Shown here in pieces: positions 7,296 through 30,561 of a stretch of 64,000 nt of DNA. The stretch covers positions 2,108,001-2,172,000 of the forward strand of contig NZ_CP113361.1 of NCBI RefSeq assembly GCF_026684035.1, in the 5' to 3' direction. The notes below the pieces were generated by a model. That model was not told the origin of the DNA, searched no databases, and worked only from the letters and a program-made list of their open reading frames with translations. This DNA comes from Methanogenium organophilum (GTDB taxonomy: Archaea; Halobacteriota; Methanomicrobia; Methanomicrobiales; Methanomicrobiaceae). The number at the start of each line of letters is the position of its first letter. Positions within the stretch are counted from its first letter, which is position 1. The position numbers were made by a program, and so were the translations under genes.

Positions 7296-8333
7296 TCAGA
7301 GTGTGGATTGTCCGGGGTCATTGCCCGCACCCCTGCTTACCCCAATATGCCTTCGGCCCGCATCTGTAATCTCCCTTCCCTGCGGTGTCCGTTTGATAAA
7401 ACCAATCTGGATCAGGTACGGTTCATAGACCTCTTCGATTGTCCGCACCTCTTCACCAATCGCGATCGCAATTGTCTTGACCCCTACCGGGCCGCCGCCA
7501 AAGTCATGCGCAACGACCGAGAGAATCCTCCGGTCGACGTTGTCAAGGCCCAGGGAGTCGATGCCGAGCATGGAAAGCGCGAGGTCTGCCGTTTGTTCGT
7601 CGATGGTGCCGTCCTTTCGGACCAGAGCGAAATCGCGGACCCGCCGGAGCAGACGGTTTGCGATGCGTGGTGTCCCGCGGCTTCGCGCTGCAATCTCCTG
7701 TGCGCCGTCTATGGTGATCTCTGTCTGCATGATTGCAGCGCTGCGCAGTACAATTTTTACGAGATCGGCAACGTCGTAGAGGGTGAGGCGGAATATAAAG
7801 CCAAAGCGGTCTCGCAGGGGGGATCCTAAGAGCCCGACCTTTGTTGTCGCACCGACGAGGGTAAACTCCTCCAAAGGAAGCTGCACCGAGCGTGCTCCGG
7901 GCCCTTCGCCGATCATCACGTCAATACAGGCGTCTTCCATTGCCGGGTAGAGGATCTCCTCGACCACCGGGTTTAACCGGTGAATTTCATCGATGAAGAG
8001 GACGTCACCCTGGGTGAGTGCGGTTAACTGGGCGGCAAGATCCCCGGGCTTGTCTAAGACCGGGCCGGTGGTGCTCCGGATGGAGACTCCCATCTCCCGG
8101 GCGACAATCTGGGCAAGTGTTGTCTTCCCAAGGCCGGGGGGCCCGGAAAAGAGGATGTGGTCGAGGGTCTCCCCCCGGGTCTTTGCGGCCGCGATGGCTA
8201 TCGCAAGGGTCTCTTTGATCTGCGCCTGACCGACAAACTCGTCGAAGTGTGCGGGTCGGATGGTGGCGTCGTCCGGTTCTTCTGCCAGACGTTCGGGTGA
8301 GGGAAGTCTCTCCTGCATGGAATTCTCTTTCAA
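7296..8333 (-). CDS. ruvB: Holliday junction branch migration ATPase RuvB
   Basis: This AAA+ motor forms hexamers that drive Holliday junction branch migration together with RuvA. Walker [10 protein letters not shown] and Walker [10 protein letters not shown] are intact, and the winged-helix C-terminal domain ([12 protein letters not shown]) is present. The length of 345 residues is normal. The start ATG at 8333 lies five bases after the ruvA stop; a second in-frame ATG at 8318 is also possible. It is the last gene of a ruvC-ruvA-ruvB operon, the bacterial gene set. Confidence 0.96.
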
Positions 8334-8338
8334 TGATA

Positions 8339-8923
8339 TCAGTGCTCCCGGAGGCGGGCAAGGGCCGCACGGATCAGGTTCTGCACGGTCGGTTCGGGAA
8401 GTGGCTGGACCGCATCAACTGCTTCCTGTGCCTCCCGTGGGGAGAACCCGAGCGAGATGAGGGCACTCACCGCGTCGCCTGCCTCTGCTGTTCGTCTGGT
8501 GGCGGGGACGGTCGCGGTATGGTTCTTCATCTTGTCCTTGAGCTCGAGGATCAACCGTTTGGCACTCTTCTGCCCGATTCCTGATATTTTTGTGAGGACC
8601 TTTTCATCGTCATTCACGATTGCGATGGCAAAATCCGCCAGAGAGATCTGGGAGAGGATGTTCATCGCTATCTGCGGGCCAATTCCGGAGACGCTGATGA
8701 GTATACGGAAGAGGTCCAGTTCACTCTGGTGAAGAAACCCGTAGAGCTGAATGTCATCGTCCCGGACGGCCATATGGGTGTGCACTTTGATGAGACCTTC
8801 AGTCTCCCTGATACTCTGCAGTGCGGGCCCGGTGACCTGCACGCGGTAGCCGATACCGCCGACGTCAATTACCACCCACCGGTCACCGGTGGATGCCAGA
8901 ACTCCTGAGAGATGTGCTATCAT
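8339..8923 (-). CDS. ruvA: Holliday junction DNA-binding subunit RuvA
   Basis: The protein has 194 residues from ATG 8923. Domain I is an OB fold starting [11 protein letters not shown]. Domain II carries two helix-hairpin-helix motifs ([12 protein letters not shown] and [12 protein letters not shown]) that grip the junction. Domain III (about 145-194) is the short helical RuvB-contacting region. The open frame extends 18 codons upstream into ruvC, but MIAHLSG is the normal RuvA start. The gene starts two bases beyond the ruvC stop, indicating tight coupling. Confidence 0.95.
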
Positions 8924-8924
8924 A

Positions 8925-9395
8925 TTATCGCATCGTGTGTATGTGGCAGAGGGCGACTGCAAGACCGTCTGCGGCATCGTCCGGGCGGGGAATTTCCTGC
9001 AGCCGGAGGAGCCGCCGCATCATCTCCTGCACCTGCTGTTTGTCGGCCCGGCCCGAACCGGTGACTGCCTGTTTGATCTGGTTGGGCGTGTACTCTGCAA
9101 TCGGAATGTCGCGTTCTTCTGCTGCGAGCAGGAGGACGCCGCGTGCTTCACTCACCTGCATTGCAGAGGTGGTGTTCTTTGAGAAGAAGAGTTTCTCCAC
9201 TGCGACGCATGCGGGGCTGTACTCGTCAAGGACCTGTGAGATTCCTTCATAGCACTCCCGCAGACGCAGGGATTGTCTCTGGCCGCTTTTTGTCTCAATA
9301 CAGCCATAGGTCAGCGGAGTCGGATTTCGGTTGGTTCTTTCCAGAACGCCGTAGCCGACCCGTGCCACCCCTGGATCAATCCCCACAACAATCAT
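8925..9395 (-). CDS. ruvC: Holliday junction resolvase RuvC
   Basis: RuvC is an RNase H-fold endonuclease that resolves Holliday junctions. The acidic catalytic residues are present: Asp7 (GIDPG), Glu67 (VAVEKLFF), and Asp140 and Asp143 (RPDDAADGLA). At 156 residues it is slightly short at the C-terminus but complete. A GGAG motif lies about 13 bases before the ATG at 9395. It heads the ruvCAB operon. Archaea normally use Hjc for this step, so this set is probably of bacterial origin. Confidence 0.95.
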   Translation of the reverse strand: MIVVGIDPGVARVGYGVLERTNRNPTPLTYGCIETKSGQRQSLRLRECYEGISQVLDEYSPACVAVEKLFFSKNTTSAMQVSEARGVLLLAAEERDIPIAEYTPNQIKQAVTGSGRADKQQVQEMMRRLLRLQEIPRPDDAADGLAVALCHIHTMR

Positions 9396-18582: not shown

Positions 18583-18759
18583 TTTAATATCACTAATCGT
18601 GTGAAACAAATGTATCTGCATTGTCTTTGCCATTCAAATTTTTTCGGAGGACAGGGGTGACATTACGTTCTAGTCAATTTGTATTGCTGTACTTGGGTGT
18701 GTTATCCAGTATTAATTTATATTTAGGAGTAAATTGTACTAATAATTAGGGGAATTATT

Positions 18760-19320
18760 GTGGCATATGAAGATTTAGCAATTTTTCGAGATATGGCGAA
18801 AGAGCAGGGTGCCGAAATTATTGAACAAGTTTACACCGATGAGATTGCCATGGATTTTAGAACAACATACAAATGTATGACCTGTCTAAAATATGGGAAA
18901 AAGCCTACTTGCCCTCCAAATATCCCTGATTTTGATTATTTTAAACGTTTAATTAATGCATATAAATATGGTTTATTAGTTGGAAAGTCATATTGCTATT
19001 CAAACGAAGAAGAATTTAAAATAATTCGGGAAGAATCGGGTCCCAGAGTTCAAGAAATTCTGTTAACTCTGGAAAAGCAAGCATTTAAAAGAAATTATTA
19101 TTGGGCAATTAGTTTCATTGGTGGATCATGCAGGGGATGTAATGCATGTCCCTCTGACAGCAGTATTTGTGTTAATCCTTCAAGAGGAAGAATTCCACTG
19201 GAAGCTACCGGAGTTGATGTAATGAAAACATGTGAAGGGAAAGGTATTAACATAAGCCCATTTCCCCATCCTGTGGAGAATGGTCAGTTGTATAGAATAG
19301 GTCTATTTTTATTGGAGTGA
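18760..19320 (+). CDS. DUF2284 predicted metal-binding protein
   Basis: The 186-residue protein belongs to the cysteine-rich DUF2284 family. Two clusters are seen: CMTCLKYGKKPTCPPN near 39-54, and CRGCNACPSDSSIC near 127-140, suggesting Fe-S or zinc binding. No function is established. The GTG start at 18760 is supported by a GGGG ribosome binding site and an upstream TATA-like TTTATATTTA at about 18714-18723. It opens the five-gene string with the SDR, LicC-like and TagF-like genes, so it may take part in that pathway, perhaps as a redox or sensing partner (inference). Confidence 0.8.
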   Translation: MAYEDLAIFRDMAKEQGAEIIEQVYTDEIAMDFRTTYKCMTCLKYGKKPTCPPNIPDFDYFKRLINAYKYGLLVGKSYCYSNEEEFKIIREESGPRVQEILLTLEKQAFKRNYYWAISFIGGSCRGCNACPSDSSICVNPSRGRIPLEATGVDVMKTCEGKGINISPFPHPVENGQLYRIGLFLLE

Positions 19321-19326
19321 GTATTT

Positions 19327-19956
19327 ATGAAGGTAGCAATAGTAACCGGAGCAACCGGAGGAATTGGCAAAGCTGTTGTAGAAGAATTGAAGAATAAAGG
19401 ATATTTTGTACATGAAGTAAGCAGAAAAAATTGTGATGTTACAAATCTCGACTCAATTAAAACGTTCATGTCAAATATAACAAATGTAGATGTTCTGGTA
19501 AATTGTGCTGGCAGGAGTCATTTAGGGTATATTGAAGATATAAGTGAAGATGATATTTGTTCCTGTTTTGATACTAATGCTCTGGGAACAATGAGATTTT
19601 GTAAGGCAGTATTGCCAATAATGAAAAAACAGAAAAATGGATATATAGTTAATATTGGATCTTTAAGGGGAATTGAATGCTGTAAAGGGAAAGCTTCGTA
19701 TTCAATGAGTAAATTTGCAGTGAGGGCTTTCTCAAATACTTTAGGTTTAGAAGTAAAGAAGTATGGAATTAATGTAACTTGTATAAATCCAGGTTTTGTC
19801 TTTACGGATTTGATAAAATATCGCATAGCTGAAGAAAACCTGAAGCCAGAAGATATTATTCAACCTTCTGATATTGCTAAAACAGTAATGTACTTGTTAA
19901 GTCTTTCAGATGGTGCAACAATATCTGAATTGAATATGGGAGATGTGTGGGAATGA
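19327..19956 (+). CDS. Short-chain dehydrogenase/reductase
   Basis: This is a classical SDR of 209 residues: TGATGGIGKA for NAD(P), NCAG, the catalytic Ser in NIGSLRG, and the YSMSK Tyr-Lys pair. All catalytic residues are present. Its neighbours are a LicC-like cytidylyltransferase and a CDP-polyol transferase. By analogy with the streptococcal CDP-arabinitol and CDP-mannitol pathways, where an SDR and a cytidylyltransferase act in series, it may reduce a phosphorylated or CDP-bound sugar to a polyol. That is inference; the fold alone would also fit a 3-oxoacyl-ACP reductase. GGAGTGAG precedes the ATG. Confidence 0.85.
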   Translation: MKVAIVTGATGGIGKAVVEELKNKGYFVHEVSRKNCDVTNLDSIKTFMSNITNVDVLVNCAGRSHLGYIEDISEDDICSCFDTNALGTMRFCKAVLPIMKKQKNGYIVNIGSLRGIECCKGKASYSMSKFAVRAFSNTLGLEVKKYGINVTCINPGFVFTDLIKYRIAEENLKPEDIIQPSDIAKTVMYLLSLSDGATISELNMGDVWE

Positions 19957-20654
19957 ATGTAATTATTTTGGCTGCTGGAATAGGATCTCGATTGTATCCA
20001 TTAACAAAAAATACTCCAAAGTGTTTATTGAAAATTAATAATGATGAAACTATATTAGGAAGAACTCTGTCTATTCTGAAAAAAGATGCATCCGAATTCC
20101 ACATTAGAATTATTGCAGGTTTCGAAGCAAATCAAATTATTGAAAAATTTGATGATATTGATATCATAGTAAATCCATTTTTTAGAATAACGAATAGCAT
20201 TGCGTCATTATGGTTTTCAAAGGATTTATTATCAGATGAAGTAACTATCATAAATGCTGATGTTTGTTTCAACAGCAATATTTTTGAAATGATAAATAAT
20301 TGTAGTAATGAGAATTTTGTTGTACTGGATAGTTCAAAGAATTGTACAGATGCAGACTATAAAATTGTAGTTGAAGAGAATTTAGTTACTGATATGGGGA
20401 AATCAATTCCTTTTGACAATTTTTCAGGTGAATATGCTGGAATTACTCACCTTAATAAAGAAGGTGCTTCACATTTGAGGAATAAACTTGAAGAAAAGCT
20501 ATTACGTGAGGAATATGACACTTGGTATGAGACTGCAATTTGTGAATTAATAAAGGAAGGATCTATGAAGGTATCAATTCTGGATATTGCTGGACAAAAT
20601 TGGATTGAAGTGGATAGTGAAAAAGAATTAATGTATGCCAAAAATAATCTTTAA
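19953..20654 (+). CDS. LicC-like phospho-alcohol cytidylyltransferase
   Basis: The 233-residue nucleotidyltransferase begins MNVIILAAGIGSRLYPLT and has TPKCLLKI, ITNSIASLWFS and IINADVCFNSNIF. The last two resemble LicC, the CTP:phosphocholine cytidylyltransferase, more than RmlA. Related enzymes activate arabinitol-, mannitol- or other polyol phosphates with CTP. The ATG at 19953 overlaps the SDR stop by four bases, so the two are coupled. The product would suit the TagF-like transferase encoded next. Choline-P or another phospho-alcohol remains possible. Confidence 0.75.
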   Translation: MNVIILAAGIGSRLYPLTKNTPKCLLKINNDETILGRTLSILKKDASEFHIRIIAGFEANQIIEKFDDIDIIVNPFFRITNSIASLWFSKDLLSDEVTIINADVCFNSNIFEMINNCSNENFVVLDSSKNCTDADYKIVVEENLVTDMGKSIPFDNFSGEYAGITHLNKEGASHLRNKLEEKLLREEYDTWYETAICELIKEGSMKVSILDIAGQNWIEVDSEKELMYAKNNL

Positions 20655-20743
20655 CTGTGAATAATGTATAATCTGTTTGACGTGTTGAATGAATGTGCGT
20701 CATTGTGGGAGATATAATATTCTCATTTTATTTTGAACTATGA

Positions 20744-22024
20744 ATGAATAAAAAGGATTTGAATGCTATGCAAATTACACCAGCAATAAATTATGCCCTT
20801 AAATTATTTACTTATCCTCTATCTCTCATTATTCCAAAAAATTCAAAAATATTAGTTATTGGTGGATGGTTTGGAGAGCGTTTCGCAGATAATTCCAGAT
20901 ATTTATATGAATTTTTGTCAATAAATAAAGAAAAGTATGATTTCGAGAAAGTAATCTGGGTTACCCGGAACAAAAAAATAATTCAGGAACTCGAGAATAA
21001 AAACTTTGAAGTATATCATATCTGGTCATTAAAATCAATCTGGTATCATCTCCGTTCTCCAATATTTATTTATGATCAATCAATTAATGACCTAAATAGC
21101 TTTTTTTTGCATAAAGGTGTTCTTTTATATCTCTGGCACGGTTTTCCACTAAAGAAAATTGGCACATTCGCGATGTCTGATGAATATAAAAAAAAATCAC
21201 GCTGTAATATTAAAATATTCCAAACGCTTGAATGTATACTTCCTGGAGTAAAAATTAGATACGGTGGAAAAGGATCATATTTGCTTGCACAGTCGGAATT
21301 TGCTTCAAATGTTTTAAGTGAAGCGTTTAGTATTCCTAAAGATAGGGTTATTCTGGCTGGATATCCTCGTAACGATATATTTGACCAAAAAGAACCCGAG
21401 GTTTACTATATTGGAAATGATTTTGAGTTAATAAAAAAAATTCAAGATCTGAAAAATTTAGGATATAAAATTATTTTTTATGCTCCTACATTTAGAGATA
21501 AAGCACCAACTAATTTTTTTGGTACAGAAGATTTATCCGAGATCCAAAAACTGAAAACATTTCTCTTAAATAAAAATTATGCACTGATTACAAAATTTCA
21601 TTTTGCAACAAACACTATGGGTCAGATACTAGAAAATGATTCACACTTTTTTAATTTGGATTCAGATACAGATGTATATTCTGTCTTACCTTTTATTGAT
21701 ATATTAATTACTGATTATTCATCAATTGCATTTGATTTTTTATTCCTGAATCGACCAATTATTTATTTTCCATATGACTTAGAATATTATCGTGATGAAG
21801 ATCGTGGATTTATGTTTGATTTTGAAGAATTTACACCAGGTCCTAAAGTATATAATATTGATGAATTGACCAAAATTTTGGAAGAAATTTACCAAGGTGT
21901 TTTTATCGATCATTTTTCAGATGAGAGAAAAAAGCTTTCTGAAAAAATATATGATCCAAAATATTATCCTGGATCTCATATATTGGCAACAGAAATAAAT
22001 AAAATATTGCGAACATATTCATGA
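20744..22024 (+). CDS. CDP-glycerol:polyol glycerophosphotransferase family (TagB/TagF-like)
   Basis: The 426-residue protein carries the motifs of the teichoic-acid polymerase family: LYLWHGFPLKKIG near 130, AGYPRND near 205, FYAPTFRD near 245, and TDYSSIAFDFLFLNRPI with FPYDLEYY near 325-350. This family transfers glycerol- or ribitol-phosphate from a CDP donor to a growing polymer or lipid-linked primer. The His and Asp residues used in catalysis are present. It is in one string with the predicted CDP-donor enzymes and the flippase. Confidence 0.88.
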   Translation: MNKKDLNAMQITPAINYALKLFTYPLSLIIPKNSKILVIGGWFGERFADNSRYLYEFLSINKEKYDFEKVIWVTRNKKIIQELENKNFEVYHIWSLKSIWYHLRSPIFIYDQSINDLNSFFLHKGVLLYLWHGFPLKKIGTFAMSDEYKKKSRCNIKIFQTLECILPGVKIRYGGKGSYLLAQSEFASNVLSEAFSIPKDRVILAGYPRNDIFDQKEPEVYYIGNDFELIKKIQDLKNLGYKIIFYAPTFRDKAPTNFFGTEDLSEIQKLKTFLLNKNYALITKFHFATNTMGQILENDSHFFNLDSDTDVYSVLPFIDILITDYSSIAFDFLFLNRPIIYFPYDLEYYRDEDRGFMFDFEEFTPGPKVYNIDELTKILEEIYQGVFIDHFSDERKKLSEKIYDPKYYPGSHILATEINKILRTYS

Positions 22025-22167
22025 TTATGAACAAATGTTTTTGGTTGAATACATTTTTCAGGAATTGTAAATGCATTTTTTCCAACTTTTTGCAGTTACT
22101 ATCTTTGGTGGAATGGAATACGATATATATTGTATGTGATTATGGATATTGTCATTAAAGAGGAACC

Positions 22168-23571
22168 ATGATAAAGCAGTCCTTCACGAGTTTTTTTTGG
22201 TTTGTCATCAGTGCACTTATTGGGTTTGGCTTTCAAATTTTTGCAGCAAGCTATCTTGGTGCTACAGATTTTGGGAAGGCAAATTATTACTATGGTTTTT
22301 CATCAACAATTATGGTTTTTGCCTGTTTTGGAGTGCAGTTTTTTTTACCAAAATATATGCATACTCTGAACAAAGATGGAAATTTATTCTCTGAAACCTT
22401 TTGGACAATTAGTGCACTCTATTGTATCATAGCCCCTATTTCGGCTTTTTTATTGAAAGAAACCATATCCCTTCCTTTGATTATTATTATCATTCTGATT
22501 TCATATTTAATGGTTATTTTTGAGGTAATTAGATCTTACTATGTAGGTCTTTCCAAGACTGATCGGGGTTTCTTCTTAGTATTACTTTTTAGGATTCTGA
22601 ATGTAGTATTGTTTATTATTGCTGTCAATTTTTTTATACAGGGATATTTGAGTTATCTTGTTGCGCTGCTGTTTGCGTATTGTTTGCTTGTACTCCCCTA
22701 CACTCTTTCAAAAATTGCTTTGCCTAGGGTGAATTTTGCAATTATTCGTTACTGCATCCCATTTTACATGGTTCAAATATCATATGGATTATTTGGATCC
22801 TTATCCCGGGTATTACAGGGATATTTTGGAACATTTGAAAGTGTTGCTGTATTATCTATTGCGCTTGTCCTTGGTACTGCCACAGGTATGCTTGGTGATG
22901 TTTTTGCAAAAGTTGTCATGCCTGATTTTGCAAAAGCCTGGGATAAAAAGAACTATGAAAACATAAAATATGCTTTCCATAAAGTTACGAGACTGAATGC
23001 TTATTTGGTATTGCCAATAGCTGTTTTTACGATAATGAATGGCGATTTTATATTAGCAATTTTAGGGAAAGGATATGAGGGTGGGTATATAATTTTTTCA
23101 CTAATTTTAATATCCAGTTTTTTTAGTTCGTTTGTTGGTCCTAATGGGACTCTTCTCAATATGACCGGGAATCAAAGGTTTGAGATCATTAATGGAATCA
23201 TTGGGCTTATTGCAGCCCTTATTATCGGTTTTTGGCTGGGTCCGATTTATATGTGGGGTATTGCTTTTGCAATTATGTTTGCGGAAATTGTGAGAAACAG
23301 CGCAAAATTGGTTGAAGTGGGAACACTATTTAATATATGGCCATTTCATAAGAATACATTCATTTTCATCATTTTCCTGCTTTTTGTTGATGTTATTATA
23401 ATGTTCATATTGAAAATGTATACATCTGGATTAATTCTTTTACTTACAAGTGGAATTGCTATTTTACTGTCCTATGTTTTAACATTCTACGCTGCTCCTG
23501 ATGAAGAAGATCGGAGATATGTGGGTATGATTAAAAAAGAATTGTTAAAGATTTTTTATAGTTTACGTTAG
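22168..23571 (+). CDS. Wzx-type flippase
   Basis: The 467-residue hydrophobic protein has 12-14 predicted membrane segments and the MOP flippase pattern (TSFFWFVISALIGFGFQIFA at the start, TGNQRFEIINGIIGLIAALI late). GAGGAACC gives a ribosome binding site before ATG 22168. Its position directly after the TagF-like gene suggests it exports the product of that module. It is AT-rich like the four genes before it. Confidence 0.88.
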   Translation: MIKQSFTSFFWFVISALIGFGFQIFAASYLGATDFGKANYYYGFSSTIMVFACFGVQFFLPKYMHTLNKDGNLFSETFWTISALYCIIAPISAFLLKETISLPLIIIIILISYLMVIFEVIRSYYVGLSKTDRGFFLVLLFRILNVVLFIIAVNFFIQGYLSYLVALLFAYCLLVLPYTLSKIALPRVNFAIIRYCIPFYMVQISYGLFGSLSRVLQGYFGTFESVAVLSIALVLGTATGMLGDVFAKVVMPDFAKAWDKKNYENIKYAFHKVTRLNAYLVLPIAVFTIMNGDFILAILGKGYEGGYIIFSLILISSFFSSFVGPNGTLLNMTGNQRFEIINGIIGLIAALIIGFWLGPIYMWGIAFAIMFAEIVRNSAKLVEVGTLFNIWPFHKNTFIFIIFLLFVDVIIMFILKMYTSGLILLLTSGIAILLSYVLTFYAAPDEEDRRYVGMIKKELLKIFYSLR

Positions 23572-23745: not shown

Positions 23746-25348
23746 CCTAAGTTTGCCACTTTGATTTCAGTCGGTCAAGAAGACTATCCGCTACATCGAT
23801 CAAATTTTTCAGAATTTTCGTCGGGATAATGAATTTGACAGTTTGTGTTTTTCACCCAACCAAATCACGAAATTGCCCAATTATGATGCAAGATCATCGC
23901 ATTTATGGCATCAAAATTCGATTGAATGCATTTTTTGTCTTTCTCTTCCACGAATCTATGGTAACTGTCAAATTCGATAACGCCTTTTTGATGAATTTTG
24001 TCGACGTTTACTTCTGTTTTGGAATCTCAAATCGGATCAGTGAGACAAATCGCTGAGCAATAAACCCAATAATCAACGCACCGTAAATGCTGTTATCTGT
24101 CCATACACACAACGGTTTGATCTCGATTTCATTCTTGAGAGAGTTGTATATCTTCTCAATAGAGTCCTTTTTTCGGTACGTCAGAAGGGCTTCGGTAAGT
24201 GTCAAATTTTTGCTCGATTTCAGGCGGAAGAATTCTTCTCTACCGGTGATGAACTTCTCTTCAAGAAGCTTGATGGCATCCTCCTCCGAGAGTCCAATCA
24301 GCTTGGTCTGGATTGAGTAGTCCAGATCCACAAGGATATTGTTTATCCGGAATCGCTTTTGAAGACTCTTATTTTTGTCAATGCTTTCCTGAATGGCCCT
24401 TGCTTCTCTGATCTCCCTGACTATTTTTCTGGCTCTGGATTCAAGCTGCTCTTTCTGCAGCTTTTTCGAGAAGTAAAGATAATTCGTGCTGCTCGGCTTC
24501 TCAATTATAATCCCGCGGATCCCTGATTCCTCATCAATAACTTGAGGACCATACGTTTCAAATTCAGCGATTATCTTGTCATCACTCTTGTTGAGCTTCT
24601 TTCCGGTTATTTATTGCAAATTATCTGCCCGAATCATCTGGCTATTAGCGACAATGCTCGCTCCTTTGTCGAAGATCACGAGAGGCCCCCCTCTGAGCCT
24701 GCCGCTTGACTGCAGATACGTCTTCTTGAAGTGCGTCTGATCATTGAGATTGCCGGGTTCGATTGTCATCCCTATCGGGATATTGATTGGGTCGGCAAGT
24801 TCTGTGACTCCTATCGTGATCTGTTTTTTATTCGGCCGGTGATCCTGACTGTACCCATATTTTCCAAGCTTGGCCTCAGTGCCATGAAGCACAATACTGG
24901 TCCAGTCTATGTTGATGTTGGTATGCTAAAAATTATACCTATCAAAAAGAACATCCTGCATATCAGAGATGATTTCATCACGGTTGGCGCCAAGGGCTTC
25001 AAGGACGCGATACAGGGTCCGTTCATTGAATGAAGGGAGAGTGAATTCAGCAAGAACTTCAGGACAGTTGATCCATTAGTGAGATCGTTTTGTGCTGAAG
25101 TTATCTGTCAGTTTGTAGCTGACAAGAGCATTGATTAGTTTGTTGCTCTCTCCTGTTATTCTTGTGTTTCCCAAATATCTCGGTGAAATTGAGGATTTCA
25201 TACAGTCTTCCGACTAGGAAAATGGTACCGATAGGAAAGGATATATTTTCGTTCAGCTCAATGTGAATAGTTCTTAGTTCTGTTTGCATTTGACCGATTC
25301 AAACATTGCTAAGAACACTCTTATTTCTTGTCAACTGGCAACGTTGGG
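23746..25348 (-). mobile_element. Decayed IS1634-family insertion sequence
   Basis: The limits are set by an imperfect terminal inverted repeat: CCTAAGTTTGCCACTTTGA at 23746-23764 and, inverted, CCCAACGTTGCCAGTTGAC at 25330-25348, matching at about 13 of 19 positions. The enclosed 1.6 kb holds a near full-length transposase on the minus strand broken by several mutations. No target duplication was identified. It separates the plus-strand TagF-like module from the minus-strand operon. Confidence 0.65.
23903..25289 (-). pseudogene. IS1634-type transposase pseudogene
   Basis: Translated in order, the minus strand gives IGTIFLVGRLYEILNF, NERTLYRVLEALG, NIDWTSIVLHGTEAKLGKYG, GYSQDHRPNKKQITIGVTEL, ITGKKLNKSDDKIIAEF, KKDSIEKIYNSLKNEIEIKP and IYGALIIGFIAQ. 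These are recognisable IS1634 (COG5421) transposase segments. The frame is interrupted by stops at 25076-25078, 24926-24928, 24611-24613 and 24008-24010, and shifts near 25150. Each stop lies within otherwise continuous coding sequence. It cannot make a working transposase. Confidence 0.88.
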
Positions 25349-25506
25349 TTATACGTGCTAAATCTTGCGATGGATAATTGTTCAAGGGTGGATTTTAGTA
25401 CGAATGATCGGGGGCACAACTGTATGACAGGTGCTTATATTCGGCCAAAAATAGTTCACCTGTGGAAAGGGTGTGTGATATGAATTATTCAAAATTAAAT
25501 GATTGA

Positions 25507-27456: not shown

Positions 27457-28470
27457 TTATGAATCTAATTTTTCAACAATTTTTAATCTGCAAACTACCT
27501 TCATGATGTAATAATAAATTAATATCCCAACAGTCATGATAAAGATTTTCAAATTCCTGTATTGAACAGAATTAATTTTATCTTTAGCTTTAACCCAATC
27601 ATGTTCACTTATGTAAAAAATAGCAGAATAGATTTTCGATTTTTCTAAACGGTTTAAATAATTCTGCTCAATATCTTCCCTTGAAATTGATAGTTTTTCT
27701 TTAAAATCGATAGGAAGATTGTCATAATATGAAATCGATATTATAGTCCCTTTTGTTAATTCAACCTTTAAATTTTTTGTTGCTTGAGCAGAATGCCATC
27801 TCCATATGCCAAGAATTTCACTAGAAGAAGCAAATTTTCCTTTTAGAGATAATTTTAGCCAGGTAGGATAATCCACGTATGGAGTATTATGATACTGAAT
27901 AAAACCACCTATTGAATTTAATGCATCTGTTTTTATCATCACAGTACAGGCAGGAATGTAATTAAATAGTAGTAATTCTCTTATTTTTTGATAATCCGAA
28001 TCTAATTTGAAATATTTTTCTTTTGGATGGTATCGCATATGATTTCCGGAAGCGTCTACAATTTCGGTTTTACCCCAACAAAGAACTACTTCTTTATCAT
28101 TAAATAACTGTAATTGTTTCTCTAACTTAGTCGACGGCCAATAATCATCACCCTCAAGAACCGCAATGTATTTACCTTTGGATAATTTAAGGGCCAAATT
28201 ATACACTTCATTTAATTTCCAGATACCTCCATTTGTTTTTTTTATGTATCGTAATCTTTTATCCTTGATATTGAATATTTTTTCTTCTGTCCTGTCTGTA
28301 GAACCGTCATTTACAATTATCATCTCCCAATTAGTATATGTTTGAGAAAGAACACTCTCAATGCACTTCTCAATGTATTTTTCATGATTATACGTTGGTG
28401 TAATGATTGTTACCAGTGGTTCGCCATTTATTGGACAATTAGATATTTTTGCTACCAAATTTTCCATCAT
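27457..28470 (-). CDS. Glycosyltransferase family 2
   Basis: The 337-residue protein has the GT-A motifs VTIITPTYNHEKYIEKCIES, VNDGSTDRT and LEGDDYWP, followed by an acceptor region and a hydrophobic stretch near residue 310 that may anchor it to the membrane. Its start overlaps the phosphodiesterase gene by about 30 bases, so translation is coupled. Donor and acceptor are unknown. Confidence 0.85.
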   Translation of the reverse strand: MMENLVAKISNCPINGEPLVTIITPTYNHEKYIEKCIESVLSQTYTNWEMIIVNDGSTDRTEEKIFNIKDKRLRYIKKTNGGIWKLNEVYNLALKLSKGKYIAVLEGDDYWPSTKLEKQLQLFNDKEVVLCWGKTEIVDASGNHMRYHPKEKYFKLDSDYQKIRELLLFNYIPACTVMIKTDALNSIGGFIQYHNTPYVDYPTWLKLSLKGKFASSSEILGIWRWHSAQATKNLKVELTKGTIISISYYDNLPIDFKEKLSISREDIEQNYLNRLEKSKIYSAIFYISEHDWVKAKDKINSVQYRNLKIFIMTVGILIYYYIMKVVCRLKIVEKLDS

Positions 28471-29902
28471 TAGATACTTCCAAGAGGTTTAAAATAATTG
28501 GTGCAATATCTAAAGAAGTAATTGTTCTTTCATTGATACCTACCAACTTTTCATGATCTTTACCACCAACAATAAATGTGGCATTTTGTTTATGGCCACC
28601 AGAAATCAATCTATGGGCATAACAATTTGTTACTAATTCAGTGTATATATCCCAATTCACTCCATAACCATCATTAAGCTCAAATAAGATATCTGGGAGA
28701 TCACTTAGATGTGGACCACAATATACATCATCTCTCTTACAAATCCATTTCAGATATTTTCTCTCTCTAGAATTCAGCTCATTTTTTATGCAAGCAATAA
28801 TATTTTCTCTTAATGGTTCATAATCAGCATCATTTATTTGTTCAATATTCAAATTTATTCCACCACAGGGATTCATTCCCACAAGATCTGATGTGTAAGC
28901 CTTACTTTTGATATAATTAATTGAATAATCTGATTTTTGAATTTTTTTGCTAACACAAGGAAAATGTCTTGAAATTTTTAATGCTAAAGAATCTAAGGAA
29001 GTGGCGTAAATTATGTCTAGTACCTTTGACTTTAATTTTCCCTGGATATAAATATTTGAAAAATCTGAATTATTATTGTTGGTAATTAAAAATCCATTTT
29101 TCCTTAAAATTTCATTAATATTGACTAGTTGCGTGGACCTCATTTGATGGCCATGATCACTAAATACCATAATAAAATTAGATTCGATTTTTACGAATTC
29201 ACTTATTATATGATCAAATAGCTTATAATAATCTAGTATTACATTTTCATATTTGTTATTACCTGGGTAAGTTGGATCTTTTTCATCATAAAATCTCCAA
29301 AAAAAATGCTTAATGCTATCTAAAGTTGTAAAGCATACAAAACCAAGGTCCCAATCTTGAGATCTTAACTGATTTATTGCATATTTAAATTGATTTTGAG
29401 TAATGGAATATATTTCTCTATAAAATTCATCTAATTCATTTTCTAATGGATATTTTGTATGTACTCCCCCCAACTTTGGTAAATTTTGATTTAACCCTAA
29501 GTGTTCAGGAAATGTCTTTGCATCTCCATCAAAACCAACAGGTCCGCTAACCATAATCCCATTTACTTCCCAAGGTGGATAAGCAACAAATGGATTAATT
29601 ATACAAACCTTTTTTCCATTTTGACTCGCTATATCCCAAAATGTTTTTCCCTCAATGGATTGAACATTAATAATACTTTTTTCAAAAGACTTAGATGTCT
29701 TTAAAACTCCGTGATTTGCTGGGTCAAGTCCAGTATAAATGCTAGTCCATAAAGGAACTGAATCATAGGGAAATATTGCTTTGTATTCAGGGAATGCACC
29801 ATTATCAATTAATTTTTTAAAGTTTGGGAGTTCTGGTAAAAATTTTTTAAGCAGAATTGGATCCAATGCATCAATACCGATTGCAAGTACTTTTACCGAC
29901 AT
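28439..29902 (-). CDS. Alkaline phosphatase superfamily phosphodiesterase/phosphatase
   Basis: The 487-residue protein has the metal-site motifs of type I phosphodiesterases and nucleotide pyrophosphatases: GIDALDP near 9, PLWTSIYTGLDPANHG near 50, FSDHGHQ near 248 and SGGHKQNATF near 445. There is no signal peptide, so it should act in the cytoplasm. Within a glycan operon it could hydrolyse a phospho-sugar, a nucleotide sugar or a phosphodiester in the glycan. The substrate is unknown. It overlaps both neighbouring genes. Confidence 0.85.
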   Translation of the reverse strand: MSVKVLAIGIDALDPILLKKFLPELPNFKKLIDNGAFPEYKAIFPYDSVPLWTSIYTGLDPANHGVLKTSKSFEKSIINVQSIEGKTFWDIASQNGKKVCIINPFVAYPPWEVNGIMVSGPVGFDGDAKTFPEHLGLNQNLPKLGGVHTKYPLENELDEFYREIYSITQNQFKYAINQLRSQDWDLGFVCFTTLDSIKHFFWRFYDEKDPTYPGNNKYENVILDYYKLFDHIISEFVKIESNFIMVFSDHGHQMRSTQLVNINEILRKNGFLITNNNNSDFSNIYIQGKLKSKVLDIIYATSLDSLALKISRHFPCVSKKIQKSDYSINYIKSKAYTSDLVGMNPCGGINLNIEQINDADYEPLRENIIACIKNELNSRERKYLKWICKRDDVYCGPHLSDLPDILFELNDGYGVNWDIYTELVTNCYAHRLISGGHKQNATFIVGGKDHEKLVGINERTITSLDIAPIILNLLEVSNDGKFGSKNI

Positions 29903-30561
29903 AATATTTTCTCATCAATTACTTTTTTGACATCTTTAATTTCTGTATTTAATTCTTGATTACCATTGATGATAATCATATCATTTTCTTTTGAAACCAT
30001 TAAATATTGATTTTTTCTATCAATCAAATAATCAATACTAGGTGTGTCATTTTTTCTTTTAAAGGCAATATCTTCAGGAATATCAATAAAAAAACACAGA
30101 CTCGGTTTTGGAAAAAAATTAAAGGATCTAGATAAGATTGACCTATTCTTCTCATCTGAATTGTTAAAATCTACTGCCAGGTCAGTTAGTACAGTATCAT
30201 AAATATATCGATCTGAGATTACAATGTCATATTTTATCAAAGAATAGATTAAGCTAGGGTATGTCTGCAAAAAATAATCAATAATTAGCAGATTTTGGTA
30301 AATATTGGATAAAAGACTATTCTTAAATATCTCCTTTTTCGCATTGGAATGATTTATATAATTTTTATAATAATCACTTTTGCTAAGAAACAATTTTTTC
30401 CCAATTAGATTAGGGATATACAGTAATACTGGGTTATATCTATTATGGAGGTATCTTGTACTGAAACCCCTAGAGGCATATTCGGTTTGTAATTTTTTAG
30501 ATACCGTTGTTTTACCTGACCCATCAATTCCAGTGAAGCATATGTAGAGTGCTTTTTTCAT
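29893..30561 (-). CDS. Thymidylate-kinase-like P-loop kinase
   Basis: The 222-residue protein has the P-loop GIDGSGKTT at 11-19 and the DRYIYDT motif of dTMP kinases near 128. It is divergent, lacks an obvious LID arginine cluster and lies within a glycosyltransferase operon, overlapping genes on both sides. It may act on a sugar or polyol rather than supply general dTTP. A role in the dTTP supply for dTDP-sugars is also possible. Both are inference. Confidence 0.75.
   Translation of the reverse strand: MKKALYICFTGIDGSGKTTVSKKLQTEYASRGFSTRYLHNRYNPVLLYIPNLIGKKLFLSKSDYYKNYINHSNAKKEIFKNSLLSNIYQNLLIIDYFLQTYPSLIYSLIKYDIVISDRYIYDTVLTDLAVDFNNSDEKNRSILSRSFNFFPKPSLCFFIDIPEDIAFKRKNDTPSIDYLIDRKNQYLMVSKENDMIIINGNQELNTEIKDVKKVIDEKILCR

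Follow-up and report, generated by a model that had tools for sequence, protein, structure and literature searches.

Polyols linked by phosphate are a hallmark of bacterial surfaces, and a gene cluster of the methanogen Methanogenium organophilum raises the question of whether a comparable chemistry is encoded in an archaeon. The cluster lies in a stretch of 64,000 nucleotides (hereafter the window) corresponding to the positions 2,108,001-2,172,000 of NZ_CP113361.1 (GCF_026684035.1); the genome consists of one 2.65 Mb contig and the feature coordinates are positions in the window. The explanation that we favour as probable is that a cassette of three genes, encoding a DUF2284 protein, a short-chain dehydrogenase/reductase (SDR) and a LicC-like nucleotidyltransferase, acts together with a TagF-family enzyme in the supply of a cytidine diphosphate (CDP)-polyol and the transfer of polyol phosphate to a glycan, within a variable surface-glycan island. 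This small mobile gene set thus probably yields an activated sugar alcohol that is phosphate-linked to a surface sugar chain as in teichoic acids. A first-pass annotation had described five genes at 18760-23571, and all five co-directional reading frames were found there:

18760..19320, + strand: DUF2284 protein (P0001), predicted to bind metal, with nine Cys; first gene of the cassette; PF10050 at 109.5 bits (cut-off 25)
19327..19956, + strand: classical SDR (P0002), predicted keto-sugar (phosphate) reductase; PF00106 adh_short at 140.7 bits (cut-off 26.6)
19953..20654, + strand: LicC-like nucleotidyltransferase (P0003), predicted cytidine triphosphate (CTP):polyol-phosphate cytidylyltransferase; PF00483 NTP_transferase at 34.3 bits (cut-off 21.2)
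20744..22024, + strand: TagF-family CDP-polyol phosphotransferase (P0004), single catalytic domain; PF04464 Glyphos_transf at 209.5 bits (cut-off 22.1)
22168..23571, + strand: Wzx/polysaccharide-flippase-like membrane protein; PF01943 at 19.8 bits, under the cut-off of 28.2

The DUF2284 and SDR genes are separated by 6 bases, and the SDR and LicC genes by -4 bases, the expected four-base overlap being located at 19953-19956 provided that LicC starts at its ATG. Gaps of 89 and 143 bases precede the TagF and flippase genes, respectively, so that the tight coupling is limited to the first three genes (18760-20654) and the idea of a single gene string holds for this part only. The five genes have a low GC content and a very low GC content at third codon positions, and form an AT-rich stretch compared with the 50-59% GC reached elsewhere in the window.

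The SDR comprises 209 amino acids and possesses the intact Ser-Tyr-Lys triad that had been announced (Ser112 in the motif NIGS, Tyr125-x3-Lys129), as well as the motif TGATGGIG at position 7. The classical model fits it best, the extended model PF01370 giving just 45.6 bits. The LicC-like protein retains the motifs LAAGIGSR, NAD (Asp103) and WIEVD (Asp221). Its top sequence match in the PDB is LicC (1jyk), its nearest sequences are LicC and PntC, and from its AlphaFold2 model (predicted local distance difference test, pLDDT, of 93) Foldseek ranks PntC, LicC and inositol-1-phosphate cytidylyltransferases before RmlA and the thymidylyltransferases. The RmlA encoded in the window is far outside the LicC-like group in the tree. 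By PDB sequence and by Foldseek, the protein therefore groups with cytidylyltransferases and not with the hexose-1-phosphate thymidylyltransferases, a placement that would have contradicted a CDP-polyol and which the LicC/PntC-type sequence and fold do not support.

The TagF-like protein is the sole PF04464 protein found in the M. organophilum genome, and its family score is far above the cut-off. It matches the residues 353-683 of the 729 residues of TagF (3l7i), with the motifs WHG, GYPRND, YAPT and TDYSS kept; WHG, at position 131, and TDYSS, at position 323, are intact as first reported, and KFHF is located at 284. A structure model built from three sequences had a pLDDT of 45 and was not used. 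The nearest equivalog is TarF (140.3 bits, cut-off 550), TarL scoring 63.3 bits (cut-off 1000). The first-pass annotation had proposed a complete activation-reduction-polymerisation-export set, of which the last two steps find no support. Concerning polymerisation, only one catalytic domain, of about 426 amino acids, makes up the protein, which scores far under every equivalog cut-off, including those of the TagF/TarL polymerases, and the N-terminal domain of the long polymerases gave no match. Concerning export, the candidate Wzx protein stays under the PF01943 cut-off and reaches 29.9 bits for Wzx_EPS (cut-off 800); it is one of three flippase-like genes of the window and is linked to the cassette by adjacency alone. 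TagO, TagA and an LCP ligase were absent from the window proteins scanned with Pfam, the rest of the genome not having been searched.

Among 232 compared genomes from the order Methanomicrobiales, the DUF2284-SDR-LicC cassette was detected in three: the window genome, Methanogenium cariaci and G207, from another family. The closest named relative of the cassette is that of M. cariaci JCM 10550 (NZ_BBBG01000008.1), of the same genus, with a LicC protein 87% identical and a DUF2284 protein about 90% identical. At the DNA level, 88% identity extends over the positions 18749-20646 of the window and stops at the last LicC codons. In G207 the identities are of 66% (DUF2284), 62% (SDR) and 56% (LicC); a TagF-family gene follows LicC at about the spacing seen in the window, yet its product is only 28% identical to the window TagF. 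The TagF partners are thus unlike among the three genomes, which indicates that the cassette is a unit of its own, paired with differing TagF-family enzymes. Between the window and M. cariaci, the nonsynonymous and synonymous substitution rates (dN/dS) are 0.075/0.56 for LicC and 0.029/0.40 for the SDR. The cassette is under purifying selection, and its conservation goes beyond chance because dN is far below dS and because the cassette recurs in a second family. The M. cariaci copy bears frameshifts, which look like assembly errors since nearby housekeeping genes of the same record are also broken.

In the order as a whole, PF04464 was present in 32 of the 232 genomes (above 200 bits in 21) and LicC-like genes in 26. 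A strong TagF and LicC occurred together in 18 genomes, TagF without LicC in 3 and LicC without strong TagF in 8 (Fisher p = 6e-18, uncorrected for relatedness), and the two genes were less than 3 kb apart in 18 of the 19 pairs measured. The dehydrogenase GpsA (PF07479) exceeded its cut-off in 14 genomes only, always beside LicC in genomes with both LicC and TagF, the family identity at these loci having been checked on one example. A TagF, LicC-like and GpsA locus from other genera of the order is L038:9147-12438, and similar loci are L033, L035, L036, L039, L040, L042, L043, L044, L046, L047 and L048. As their reductase is GpsA, these loci are predicted CDP-glycerol systems. The lipids of archaea use the other glycerol phosphate than the product of GpsA. 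Within the limited literature collection searched, the combination of GpsA, CDP-glycerol and archaea returned nothing.

A further supply arrangement is found in the methanogen genome G033 (L031:8096-10721), where an IspD-SDR fusion of 460 amino acids adjoins a TagF-family gene and scores above the cut-off for D-ribitol-5-phosphate cytidylyltransferase; we take this fusion to have the architecture of the CDP-ribitol synthase Bcs1. The reductase beside LicC or TagF is consequently swapped among relatives, being GpsA, the IspD-SDR fusion or DUF2284-SDR. The SDR, LicC and TagF linkage of the first annotation recurs, and fits a broader pattern of the order, in which TagF is accompanied by a reductase and a cytidylyltransferase. 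LicC and TagF are also neighbours at loci from other archaeal members of the phylum (L067, L072, L081), and a LicC relative stands beside TagF on a Solidesulfovibrio plasmid, the plasmid relatives being at most 32% identical to the window LicC. Separately, in G068 (L032:3988-6512) a LicC-like domain and a HAD-type phosphatase form one fusion protein, whose gene is followed by GpsA, and a LicC-like gene adjoins a TagF-family gene in the euryarchaeal metagenome-assembled genome isolate SP42 (L091:5671-7560).

Several known systems can be compared with this locus. A Bcs1-type CDP-ribitol synthase operates with TarF or TarL in Haemophilus influenzae and Staphylococcus aureus. There as here, a classical SDR and a cytidylyltransferase accompany a PF04464-type enzyme, in that case to provide a CDP-pentitol, and a Bcs1-like fusion lies by TagF in G033; however, Bcs1 is an IspD-family enzyme fused to an SDR, whereas in the window the LicC-like enzyme is a protein of its own and DUF2284 is present in addition. 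The CDP-arabinitol and CDP-mannitol pathways had been cited as precedents for pairing an SDR with a LicC-like enzyme. For CDP-mannitol this parallel fails at the level of family membership: the characterised CDP-mannitol (Mnp1/Mnp2) and CDP-6-glucitol (HS5.18/HS5.17) pairs associate an IspD-family enzyme (PF01128) with an extended SDR (PF01370) (PMC10918830), while P0003 has no PF01128 match and P0002 is a classical SDR. In these pathways a reductase-cytidylyltransferase pair supplies a CDP-hexitol to surface glycans, and the logic of the window cassette appears similar although it falls outside that family. Finally, the LicC, GpsA and TagF loci of relatives in the order, from the genus g19 and others, share with the window the adjoining LicC-like and TagF-family enzymes and the presence of a dehydrogenase, but their reductase is GpsA, their LicC proteins are 27-30% identical to that of the window and they are devoid of DUF2284.

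In the mechanism that we propose, the SDR would most likely act first, reducing a keto-sugar phosphate to the polyol phosphate that the LicC-like enzyme, judging from its family, would join to cytidine monophosphate from CTP; the reverse order, with activation before reduction as in the CDP-mannitol pathway, may also apply. The TagF-family enzyme, from its family and motifs, would then move the polyol phosphate onto a glycan built by the surrounding glycosyltransferases. A pentitol is our tentative first guess for the polyol, followed by glycerol or a hexitol. No GpsA, phosphoenolpyruvate (PEP) mutase or LicD was found in the M. organophilum genome, and IspD and TagD were detected only far under cut-off, so that the cassette is the best candidate supplier for the sole PF04464 enzyme. 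A phosphonate route (PEP mutase), a choline-type route with LicD, and a substrate supply by GpsA, IspD or TagD encoded outside the cluster were each rejected on these grounds, and the same absences argue against most of the rival explanations.

Some observations weigh against the CDP-polyol reading. The TagF gene begins 89 bases from LicC without overlap, one genus dominates the co-occurrence of LicC and TagF, and in M. cariaci a different gene follows LicC, the only PF04464 protein near the cassette being a distant one (30 bits) encoded about 5 kb upstream. We infer the substrates of all the enzymes, and likewise the order of the steps, the acceptor and the transfer of one unit or of a chain. 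Moreover, the tree sets the window LicC beside a Fusobacterium enzyme (98/97, long branch) encoded on a plasmid, where its neighbours, a LicD-like gene and one for a class V aminotransferase, suggest an aminoalkyl substrate. This nearest tree neighbour, together with LicC and PntC as top sequence and fold matches, would fit a LicC-like enzyme activating phosphocholine, phosphoethanolamine or an aminoalkylphosphonate for glycan decoration, the SDR, DUF2284 and TagF proteins acting elsewhere. We consider this unlikely: such routes have no place for an SDR, the genome yielded neither PEP mutase nor LicD, and the neighbour of the gene in two families of the order is TagF, not LicD.

An ordinary glycerol-phosphate system like those of the g19 relatives, in which the cassette would make CDP-glycerol without GpsA, also seems improbable to us. 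The relatives do combine LicC and GpsA next to TagF, and the TagF-like protein is closest to the glycerol-phosphate transferase TarF (140 bits); however, the genome is devoid of GpsA, the window LicC is separated in the tree from the GpsA-linked LicC group (27-30% identity), and we know of no SDR that makes glycerol-3-phosphate. The cassette and TagF could otherwise be unrelated neighbours in a variable glycan island, the cassette product being used elsewhere. The M. cariaci cassette devoid of an adjacent TagF, the TagF partners only 28% identical and an AT-rich island ending at a decayed transposase-like remnant all speak for such a chance association, to which we nevertheless assign a low probability given the TagF gene placed after LicC at near-equal spacing in two families and a LicC-TagF linkage that is general in the order and extends to other archaea and a bacterial plasmid.

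The remnant is a decayed frame on the minus strand at 23900-25400, just past the flippase gene, which by eye resembles an IS1634-type transposase and contains several stops; its longest open piece had no Pfam match. The glycan island adjoins ruvC-ruvA-ruvB-like genes in both Methanogenium genomes (window 7296-9395; L117:16077-18097), and this ruv-side island is a variable glycan locus whose gene order and content differ between the two genomes. On the minus strand at 28439-30561, two further proteins are encoded amid glycosyltransferases, one of the type I phosphodiesterase family and one resembling thymidylate kinase. As to the origin of the cassette, viral carriage was rejected, no relative being encoded on any viral contig. 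A bacterial donor was not retained either: beyond M. cariaci, a contig scan that relied on exact short patterns, and that missed G207, gave only LicC proteins about 30% identical.

The system had been called unexpected in an archaeon, a view that the presence of PF04464 in 32 genomes of the order and earlier work on another methanogen do not support. For Methanobrevibacter ruminantium M1, homologues of teichoic-acid genes were reported in 2010, along with a wall rich in phosphate (PMC2812497; also PMC5816558), so the teichoic-type idea is not new for methanogens. That organism resembles the present case in being a methanogen for which a PF04464-type enzyme is annotated, but differs by its pseudomurein wall and by belonging to another order. 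Three features appear to be new here: the cassette of three genes, the exchange of one supply module for another next to TagF inside a single order, and the restriction of GpsA to loci of this kind. It is possible, though we hold it with some doubt, that the methanogens of this order produce surface glycans with polyol phosphate, similar to teichoic acids, from interchangeable supply modules (LicC and GpsA for glycerol, IspD-SDR for ribitol, and DUF2284-SDR-LicC for a third CDP-polyol that may be new), the bacterial-type GpsA of these archaea existing solely to feed them. If this is true, modular and transferable gene sets that provide TagF-family enzymes with CDP-polyols would extend bacterial surface chemistry to another archaeal group, and a concrete role would be found for the bacterial-type glycerol-3-phosphate dehydrogenases that are scattered among archaea.

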